Origin: Microbacterium sp. LWO12-1.2
Lineage (GTDB): Bacteria > Actinomycetota > Actinomycetes > Actinomycetales > Microbacteriaceae
Length of the DNA stretch: 64,000 nucleotides
Reading direction: 5' to 3'
NCBI RefSeq assembly: GCF_040675875.1
Contig: NZ_JBEGII010000001.1
Span: 558,001-622,000 of the forward strand
In this document: piece after piece, positions 55,774-57,321 of the stretch
Numbering within the stretch: the stretch's first letter is position 1
Layout: every line of letters begins with the position of its first letter
Position numbers and translations under genes: made by a program
Notes under the pieces: generated by a model
What the model saw: only the letters and a program-made list of their open reading frames with translations
Told to the model about the DNA's origin: nothing
Database searches by the model: none

Positions 55774-56565
55774 TTGAGCGCCGCGGAAGCGGAGCCGACC
55801 CTCATCGGGTCAGTGCAGCGTGCGCTTCGTCTCGTCGACATCGTCGCGAACTCGCCACGACCGCTTCCCGTCAAGATGCTGGCGGCCATCACAGGTCTCA
55901 CGCCGGGCACGACCTACAATCTCGTCCGGACGCTGATCCATGAGGGCTACCTCGCGTCGGAGCCGGACGGATTGGTGCTCGGGAGTCGATTCCCGGCGTT
56001 CCAGCACGAGACCGATGCGCGCGGGGTCTTCCTCGCCCGGGTGCGCGCCGCACTGCGTGATGTCACCGACGAGCTGGGGGCCACCGCGTACCTGTCGCGT
56101 TTCGACGACGGTGAGATGCATCTGGTCGACATCGTCGACGCCGTGCACAACCCTCGTGTCGAGCTCTGGGTGGGGTTGCAGTCCAGTGCACACGCGACAG
56201 CGTTGGGCAAGCAGATCCTCGCGGATCTCCCCGGCGACGATCGCCTCGACTACCTCTCGCGACACCGGCTGGAAGAGCTCACCCCGCGGACCATCAAGGA
56301 TCGGCGGATCCTGCTCACCCAGCTGGAGCATTCGCCCGGGTGGACAGTCGACCGAGAGGAGTATGTGATCGGCGCCACTTGCGTCGCGGTCCCGGTGATC
56401 GCCCCGAACGTCACGGCCTCGCTGGCCATCTCGCTGCCGGCCGATCGGGCGATCGTCGATCGAGCGCTGGTCTCACGGCTGCAGAGCACGGCGCGCCGTT
56501 TGTCGTTGCAGCTCGGCGCTGACTCCTTGGACGGCTCGAGCCCCGGGGGCGAGTTCACTATCTGA
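55774..56565 (+). CDS. IclR-family transcriptional regulator
   Basis: The 263-residue regulator has an N-terminal winged helix (GSVQRALRLVDIVAN ... AITGLTPGTTYNLVRTL) and a C-terminal IclR effector domain (AHATALGKQILADLP, ECVAVPV-like ATCVAVPVIAPNVTASLAIS). The TTG start has GGAGGAGG about eleven bases upstream. It is 2 bases after ispH. A perfect palindrome 19 bases after its stop, in the promoter of the small RNA, is a candidate target. Confidence 0.9.
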   Translation: MSAAEAEPTLIGSVQRALRLVDIVANSPRPLPVKMLAAITGLTPGTTYNLVRTLIHEGYLASEPDGLVLGSRFPAFQHETDARGVFLARVRAALRDVTDELGATAYLSRFDDGEMHLVDIVDAVHNPRVELWVGLQSSAHATALGKQILADLPGDDRLDYLSRHRLEELTPRTIKDRRILLTQLEHSPGWTVDREEYVIGATCVAVPVIAPNVTASLAISLPADRAIVDRALVSRLQSTARRLSLQLGADSLDGSSPGGEFTI

Positions 56566-56583
56566 AGAAACCGACCTGGTGTT

Positions 56584-56596
56584 AAGCGAATCGCTT
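56584..56596. promoter_or_regulatory. Operator-like palindrome in the small-RNA promoter
   Basis: AAGCGAATCGCTT, a perfect palindrome around one A, lies immediately upstream of TATGAT (56600-56605), the best -10 hexamer in this region. A bound protein would block the promoter. The IclR-family product just upstream, or a LacI-type regulator elsewhere, could bind. Confidence 0.65.
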
Positions 56597-56599
56597 TCC

Positions 56600-56605
56600 T
56601 ATGAT
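56600..56605 (+). promoter_or_regulatory. -10 hexamer of the small RNA
   Basis: TATGAT, close to the consensus, with predicted start near 56612. No recognisable -35. Confidence 0.6.
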
Positions 56606-56611
56606 CGGACG

Positions 56612-56752
56612 AGTAGTCGTCTGTGCAAACGGCACTACGGGTCGGCGGATTGTCCCCAGCTCTCCGAGACCCAATTGGATGTGGAGCGTCCCCAGCGTTC
56701 CTCGTCCGCGGCCCCGAGAGTCCCCAATTCTTCGGGGCCGCCATCGTTTTCG
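56612..56752 (+). ncRNA. Predicted C-rich-loop small RNA, three TCCCCA hairpins (6C-like)
   Basis: A free-standing transcript about 140 bases long, with its own -10, operator and terminator. Hairpin 1 is GGGTC/GACCC plus CGGA/TCCG with TCCCCA at 56653-56658. Hairpin 2 is GGAGCG/CGTTCC with loop TCCCCAG (56689-56695). Hairpin 3 is CGGCCCCGA/TCGGGGCCG with TCCCCA at 56721-56726 and then CATCGTTTT. Repeating one C-rich motif in three loops is the logic of the actinobacterial 6C RNA, but each loop has four Cs, not six. No convincing coding sequence lies within. Confidence 0.7.
56708..56750 (+). terminator. Rho-independent terminator of the small RNA
   Basis: GCGGCCCCGA (56708-56717) with TCGGGGCCGC (56732-56741), then CATCGTTTT. 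It also forms the third TCCCCA hairpin. Confidence 0.8.
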
Positions 56753-56802
56753 GACCTGCCGACTGGCAGCCCGCTCACACACGCGGCGATTAGCATGGCG
56801 GG

Positions 56803-57321
56803 ATGAGCGATACACGGCCCCAGTACGGCGAACTCGCAACCCCGGAAGAGCAGCGGCTGGCCGCCGGTCTTCCGCCGCTCACCGAAGTGCAGCCCGCTGT
56901 CGTGGCTCCTGAGCCGGCCCCGCAGGCCGTGGTGGCAGAGCCCGCCCGACGGCGACCGGTGGATCGTTTCGCGACCATCGCGTTGCTCGCCTACGGCCTC
57001 GTCAACGTCGTCATGACGGCGATGTCGTATCTCGACCTGCCCGCGTCGATGAACCAGACGATGAAGATGATGGGGATCGACGGCGAGTTCACGAACTTCG
57101 CGCAAGGGCGCCTCTGGGGGACCATCGCGGCGATCGTTCTCGTGATCGGCTGGTGCGTCACGGCCGCACTGTCCGTTCGGCGTCTGCGCCGCGGAAAGCT
57201 GTCGTGGTGGGTGCCGATCGTGGGTGCCGTAGTGACCCTCCTCGTCACGTCGATCTGTATCGCGGTGCCGATGATGGGCGACCCCGCCTTCATGGAGTAT
57301 GTGACCTCCTTCGGTCAGTAG
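56803..57321 (+). CDS. Hypothetical membrane protein (DUF6264-like)
   Basis: The 172-residue protein has a Pro/Ala-rich cytoplasmic tail (1-50) and three to four hydrophobic segments (VDRFATIALLAYGLVNVVMTAMSYL, GTIAAIVLVIGWCVTAAL, WWVPIVGAVVTLLVTSICIAV). A duplicated AVVAPEPAPQAVVAEP lies in the tail. ATG 56803 follows TAGCAT plus six bases (leaderless). It resembles small Microbacteriaceae membrane proteins of DUF6264; the match is by eye. Confidence 0.7.
   Translation: MSDTRPQYGELATPEEQRLAAGLPPLTEVQPAVVAPEPAPQAVVAEPARRRPVDRFATIALLAYGLVNVVMTAMSYLDLPASMNQTMKMMGIDGEFTNFAQGRLWGTIAAIVLVIGWCVTAALSVRRLRRGKLSWWVPIVGAVVTLLVTSICIAVPMMGDPAFMEYVTSFGQ

Follow-up and report, generated by a model that had tools for sequence, protein, structure and literature searches.

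A conserved, covarying small-RNA gene with three UCCCCA loops in Microbacterium

Described C-rich-loop RNAs and the Microbacterium locus

The actinobacterial 6C RNA (RF01066; B11 in mycobacteria) is described in a passage of PMC4046766 as having two loops, typically of six C each, and parts of PMC10470900 and PMC12395582 place the acting loop of the M. marinum 6C/B11 RNA in its terminator and have its loops acting on mRNA targets. A second RNA, sX13 of Xanthomonas, is presented in sections of PMC3771888 as three stable stems, each with an apical loop of four or five C, and through these C-rich loops, independently of Hfq, it represses mRNAs that carry G-rich motifs close to the start. The same sections report that in Staphylococcus aureus a UCCC loop motif is found in many RNAs, and that loops of RNAIII pair with ribosome sites.

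Here we describe a conserved and covarying small-RNA gene, confined to Microbacterium within the genomes sampled, which lies in the window, by which we mean the whole stretch of 64,000 nucleotides of Microbacterium sp. LWO12-1.2 that was analysed. Its parts are listed in Table 1. A preliminary description of this interval had recorded a TATGAT, three TCCCCA motifs and a last stem-loop acting as terminator with TTTT, all of which are present, the terminator-like stem being GC-rich; the 5' hairpin P1 is a fourth hairpin that it did not contain. We infer that the RNA starts 6–7 nt past the -10 and take the TTTT as its end. The covariance model R1 scores the window copy, which belonged to its training set, at 135.7 bits with all 139 positions covered.

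Table 1. Positions in the window of the small-RNA gene, its parts and its neighbours
Feature	Position	Strand	Description
Putative promoter block	56576..56605	+	CTGGTG 56576-56581; spacer with AAGCGAATCGCTT 56584-56596; -10 TATGAT 56600-56605
Small RNA gene, ~139 nt	56612..56750	+	Covariance model R1 and covariation
5' hairpin P1	56613..56638	+	Both-side changes in 8/8 modelled pairs (A2)
Hairpin H1, loop 1 UCCCCA 56653-56658	56640..56671	+	Both-side changes in 12/12 pairs (A2); loop in 42/43 copies
Hairpin H2, loop 2 UCCCCA 56689-56694	56677..56707	+	Both-side changes in 10/11 pairs (A2); loop in 41/43 copies
Hairpin H3, terminator-like stem, loop 3 UCCCCA 56721-56726	56708..56741	+	Paired cells 95.8%; both-side changes in 5/14 pairs (A2); loop in 41/43 copies; then TTTT 56747-56750
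Upstream neighbour, IclR-family regulator gene	55774..56565	+	PF09339 and PF01614; outside the RNA
Downstream neighbour, DUF6264 protein gene	56803..57321	+	PF19779

The block ahead of the RNA probably serves as its promoter, as CTNGNG is invariant across 30 aligned loci and, by reading, each of these has a TANNNT -10, although the spacer has diverged in L126, L130, L297 and L300. An operator-like palindrome had also been reported here; AAGCGAATCGCTT is indeed in the spacer, but of the 30 aligned loci the window copy alone has the perfect palindrome, most of the others carrying a GGCAYGCGCTTT-like stretch at that position. The DUF6264 gene, in turn, probably has a -10 of its own just 5' of its ATG: a putative TAGCAT lies at 56791–56796, six bases before the ATG, the gene appears leaderless, and a TTAGCATGGCGGGATGA-like sequence precedes it, by reading, in most of the 30 loci.

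At the window locus every Rfam family stays below its gathering score. The best match below threshold is sX13 (RF02232; 21.5 bits, E 0.063), with which the window RNA shares three stems with apical loops of the 4C or 5C kind. The differences are considerable, as only H2–H3 align with the sX13 model of 115 positions, the window loops are all UCCCCA, and the score lies far under the gathering score of 50. Furthermore, sX13 belongs to another phylum and is a polA-locus RNA in the portions of PMC3771888 concerned, whereas the RNA described here sits in the ispH–DUF6264 interval.

With 6C the likeness is that of an actinobacterial small RNA with C-rich loops. The definition of 6C, two stem-loops with about six C each, contrasts with the three four-C UCCCCA loops and additional 5' hairpin seen here, and the locus is a different one. 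RF01066 (gathering score 47 bits) has no hit at the window locus; its two hits in the window genome (G000), at 34.8 and 28.3 bits, lie elsewhere and under the cut-off. Conversely, R1 gives no match at E<=0.5 with the 6C loci L034, L035, L036 and L040, of which L034 and L035 are in other neighbourhoods, beside what reads as a secretion-type ATPase gene. The suggestion that the window RNA might be a 6C variant does not survive these searches. A weak 6C-like hit in the window genome (L041, G000:C1:2238223) looks like an ordinary terminator downstream of a gene and was set aside. A 6C hit of at least 40 bits was found in five of 35 Microbacterium genomes (G011, G013, G016, G019 and G020), none of which carries the window RNA, numbers too small to call a mutual exclusion.

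The UCCC-motif RNAs of S. aureus, RNAIII among them, are from another phylum and are likened to the present case by loop motif, in that the motif is common to many RNAs of one genome. As a stand-alone, structured and conserved noncoding element, as is characteristic of the C-rich-loop trans-acting small RNAs, the window RNA is a candidate for an RNA that works like them, while being a member of no family tested.

Structure, loop conservation and distribution

The predicted folding energy of segment 56584–56760 is -78.6 kcal/mol, whereas its shuffles average -60.1 (z -4.51), and none of 200 dinucleotide shuffles folds as well as the window copy. Covariation was assessed in two alignments. The first, A1, was made with MAFFT from sequence only, using 30 copies fetched out of 41 blastn-positive genomes, and R1 was built from it with the structure read off the alignment. 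In A1, 89.9% of cells pair and 18 of the 45 pairs show changes on both sides, compared with a shuffle mean of 10.5 (0/500 reach 18) and with 3–6 pairs in slid controls. The second, A2, comprises 43 matches from 44 loci searched and was fitted to R1, hence leaning towards the model; both-side changes are seen there in 35/45 pairs, against 12–15 in slid versions. To count events rather than sequences, changes were also mapped onto a protein tree of DUF6264 plus IspH that covers 41 of the 43 copies, a double change being a branch on which both sides switch from one standard pair to another. The tree carries 66 double changes in 30/45 pairs, against 2–7 in slid versions, so that the compensatory stem changes looked for in relatives are there. 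The model structure was drawn from part of the tested sequences, which favours it over the slid versions, but we judge the gap to be too large for this bias in the choice of structure alone. Copies occur at every length from 134 to 141 nt, and thus no reading frame is kept, which argues against a small protein. From all of this we hold the existence of a structured RNA to be nearly certain.

The three UCCCCA loops are all present in 39 of the 43 copies, in support of the proposed small-RNA gene with three conserved C-rich loops, the exceptions being L026, L113, L121 and L126. L121, which adjoins an iclR gene containing a stop codon in G114, has the look of a decayed copy. In A1 the mean column identity of loops 1, 2 and 3 is 1.00, 0.98 and 1.00, against 0.63, 0.87 and 0.92 in the stems of H1, H2 and H3, which bears out the proposal that selection acts on the loops. 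Two groups of copies have an H1 of different construction that still displays the same loop. In the predicted fold of the window copy the UCCCCA motifs are unpaired with probabilities of 0.69, 0.84 and 0.85, and the corresponding means over the 39 copies with all three loops are 0.83, 0.84 and 0.76.

By blastn the region is found in 41/198 genomes of the genus. R1 detects it in 47/198 Microbacterium genomes at E<=0.01 and, with a best hit of at least 44 bits, in 42/198, about a fifth; the 44-bit line was set after viewing the hit list, the next hits (up to 41.4 bits) being other RNA types or decayed copies. The prefilter of this search was loose, with 8 or 16 candidates scored per genome, and divergent copies may escape it. 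In a sample of 398 genomes of the family, four reach 44 bits or more, all of them Microbacterium. Ten genomes of this sample give R1 matches at E<=0.1, and the five belonging to other genera score no more than 25 bits; those inspected are terminators or code, the best two (L047, L048) being terminator-like and L050 lying inside a coding gene. A DUF6264 match is present in 172 genomes, and at the 29 such loci fetched from other genera there is neither an R1 match at E<=0.1 nor an IclR match, IspH being within 210 nt in 20, further off in seven and off the locus in two. Phages and plasmids gave no match, nor did plasmids for a second RNA type. The small RNA is restricted to Microbacterium in this sample.

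Gene neighbourhood, proposed mechanism and candidate targets

The RNA sits in the ispH–DUF6264 interval in 39 of 42 carriers. The order ispH–iclR–RNA–DUF6264 is found in 33 (26 of loci L001–L030 plus L110, and six more by coordinates and protein matches), and six others have ispH–RNA–DUF6264 without iclR (L007, L016, L026, L113, L126 and L130). L020 has neither iclR nor ispH inside 1.5 kb, and at L127 and L128, which score 44–45 bits, the RNA lies away from ispH, iclR and DUF6264. Control of the RNA by the adjacent regulator, as had been suggested, is not upheld: IclR (E<=1e-30) is missing from 8/42 carriers, and of the iclR-less loci L007, L016, L026 and L113 keep the promoter block unchanged, although it has diverged in L126 and L130. 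We conclude that the IclR regulator is a frequent neighbour and a dispensable part. A role for the palindrome as an IclR operator was likewise rejected, since it lacks conservation and these four loci retain the promoter block.

In three genomes iclR is found in other surroundings (L122, L123 and L124). Behind the relocated gene there are hairpins with AUCCCCAG and GUCCCCAG loops in L124 (G094) and UUCCCCAG hairpins in L123 (G013), both genomes being without the window-type RNA; R1 gives no match with L123 at E<=0.5 and 11.9 bits only with L124. Behind the iclR of L122 (G100) no C-loop element is visible.

We propose that the gene would produce an independent regulatory RNA some 139 nt in length, whose transcription may start from its own promoter and end at the third hairpin. 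Each of the three UCCCCA loops would most likely serve as an exchangeable seed for pairing with mRNA stretches of the UGGGGA type, and pairing might lower the translation or stability of the message, as in sX13 and 6C/B11. By analogy with these RNAs, we consider it probable, if some way from certain, that this is a regulatory RNA of this length acting by antisense pairing of C-rich loops with G-rich mRNA.

A search of 464 kb of the window genome (434 predicted genes with 427 starts, predicted by a script that favours starts with a ribosome site) finds UGGGGA at 1/427 starts in the upstream 30 nt and at 1/427 in the downstream 20 nt, ranking 27 of 30 permutations, and so gives no support for many targets at ribosome sites. 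Within 170 nt upstream, UGGGGA occurs in 17/416 sampled genes. The word CTGGGGAC is rarer genome-wide than its reversed control (84 against 127), and 10/84 of its sites fall within -100 to +60 of a predicted start on the same strand. In the window genome a CTGGGGACGC is found some 39 nt ahead of the mtrA start (L195), with TGGGGA in five other carriers, and many carriers have TGGGGN or TGCGG at that position. As a target the mtrA leader was rejected: in the 70 genomes covered, out of 197 that have mtrA, TGGGGA within 110 nt is found in 6/42 carriers (one of which, G023, is almost without upstream sequence) compared with 4/28 non-carriers, and is not conserved.

One candidate target is the message for a Tat-like exported protein, which has no match in Pfam or NCBIfam and whose upstream regions carry conserved tandem G-runs, often CUGGGGACUGGGGA. 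A tandem CTGGGGACTGGGGA-like sequence is seen in L242 and many of L335–L362, often about 80–90 nt before the start codon. Using one pattern for both sets, and leaving out 2/29 loci nearly without upstream sequence, two G4 runs 1–5 nt apart and no more than 170 nt upstream are found at 16/27 exported-protein loci, against 8/416 sampled genes of the window genome; for tandem UGGGGA the counts are 10/27 and 0/416, and for any UGGGGA 18/27 and 17/416. The gene was chosen because of its double site, the species are related and conservation extends to other parts of the interval, and therefore this candidate target is a lead and not a proof. The preliminary idea of pairing with G-rich ribosome sites thus finds little support: it has this one conserved tandem site in its favour, and against it the scarcity of UGGGGA near starts, while the distance of the tandem site from the start codon in many loci places it off the ribosome site.

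RNAs sharing the loop, and alternative readings

A wider set of C-loop elements was uncovered through weak second R1 hits and a search for two GUCCCCAG words 10–40 nt apart. Across the 198 Microbacterium genomes there are 87 instances of the two-word pattern, spread over 72 genomes, compared with 25 of its reversed control. Coordinates identify 35 of the 87 as the window RNA itself, leaving 52 against 25; outside the genus there are 9 against 16 (158 genomes). The paired-loop pattern is in excess in Microbacterium and not in the rest of the family sample. Among the 18 of 87 pattern loci that were viewed, some hits are coding or chance (L150, for instance, reads as coding).

The second RNA type (L111, L112, L114, L115 and L119) has two tight GUCCCCAG hairpins below an inverted repeat resembling AAAGGTC/GACCTTTGG, and the presence of the AAAGGTC...GACCTTTGG repeat upstream of all five suggests a common regulator. 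Further types are represented by L116–L118, at three places in G083, and by L120, L138 and L140. In L141, L142, L145, L148, L160 and others the hairpins lie below a palindrome like TGTCCCCC..GGGGGACA. A TGTCCCCCAAAAGGGGGACA-like palindrome stands upstream of many of the GUCCCCAG-loop RNAs (L141, L142, L148, L134, L145, L155 and L042) and might be an operator that these RNAs have in common or else a terminator lying before them, its GGGGAC arm being complementary to the loops. None of eight loci of the wider set reaches a gathering score in Rfam.

The window genome has three further places with several CCCCA loops in predicted hairpins. L234 (G000:C1:3216505-3216608, minus strand) is predicted to form three hairpins, whose loops show UCCCCAG, UCCCCAG and UUCCCCAA; the third has a strong GC-rich stem. 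In L225 (G000:C1:2644818, minus strand) hairpins with AUCCCCAG and GUCCCCAG loops come before a long GGGCCCUCUCGAG stem that contains CCCCAGUCCCCA; the first loop is only half open in the fold (0.46), and the locus has a relative in L129 (G092). L042 (G000:C1 3360900-3361152) consists of two adjacent C-loop elements, the first with CCCCCAG, UCCCCAG and AGUCCCCAAUG loops and the second a six-C hairpin below the TGTCCCCCAAAAGGGGGACA palindrome, and hits with an identical 28.3-bit 6C score occur in several relatives. Word counts in G000 show no excess, either for GTCCCCAG (84 against 127 in the reversed control) or for CCCCAG-N15-45-TCCCCA (20 against 26), and the noncoding parts of the 464 kb hold 2 TCCCCA hairpins against a top of 4 for permuted words; the case for the other C-loop RNAs of this genome thus lies in their predicted hairpins and not in counts.

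It is conceivable, and we put it forward tentatively, that Microbacterium has a genus-specific set of many unlinked small RNAs which differ in architecture but share the loop (G)UCCCCAG, acting as one network of redundant seeds under different promoters and converging on the same UGGGGA mRNAs or on the same C-tract binding protein. Of such a set, the window RNA would be the best-conserved member seen.

CsrB and RsmY are RNAs built to titrate a protein, in their case without C-rich loops. A model on this plan, in which repeated identical C-rich loops hold back a protein that binds single-stranded C-tracts, would suit the three identical loops, the fact that several unlinked Microbacterium RNAs carry this loop too and the lack of enrichment of complementary sites near starts. 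It is nonetheless unlikely, though worth keeping in mind, given that, in the parts of PMC3771888, PMC10470900 and PMC12395582 concerned, sX13 and 6C/B11 use their loops on mRNA sites that are G-rich or complementary. Descent from 6C, with relocation of a divergent copy, we regard as very improbable, notwithstanding the actinobacterial host and C-rich loops that include one in the terminator; the failure of each model to find the other RNA and the different neighbourhood of 6C refute this reading at the level of model match and locus.

The steady position of the RNA near DUF6264, with a DUF6264 match at 41/43 loci, could instead reflect a cis element without a trans role, located either ahead of DUF6264, as its leader or attenuator, or at the 3' end of the iclR or ispH mRNA, as a tail with a strong terminator. 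We think this improbable, as DUF6264 seems to own a -10 by its start codon, past the terminator-like hairpin, the RNA persists whether iclR is present or absent, as well as at the two loci away from all three genes, and three near-invariant loops are needless for a plain terminator. A module in which the neighbouring IclR-type protein regulates the RNA is a poor prospect to about the same degree. The two are associated, 34/39 genomes with this IclR carrying the RNA and 34/42 RNA carriers having this IclR, and the C-loop hairpins behind the relocated iclR genes of G094 and G013 leave room for some link between them; but in six genomes the order is ispH–RNA–DUF6264 and iclR is absent, the promoter block being the same in four of them, iclR stands in G100 with no such element in view, and much of the linkage is accounted for by common descent of the locus. 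Antisense pairing of the loops with mRNA is the reading we prefer to each of these alternatives.

The RNA adds a covariation-backed small RNA family to Microbacterium. Among the papers listed by full-text searches of open-licence literature, judged by title and abstract opening, none is a small-RNA study of this genus, and none of those listed for C-rich-loop RNAs of actinobacteria names the window RNA. It looks like an unlisted RNA regulator able to pair with G-rich messages, in which C-rich loops would be a solution reached again without detectable kinship to 6C. The set of RNAs sharing this loop, if real, would offer a test of why one genome keeps several RNAs with one seed, and of pairing against protein binding as the mode of action of such loops.
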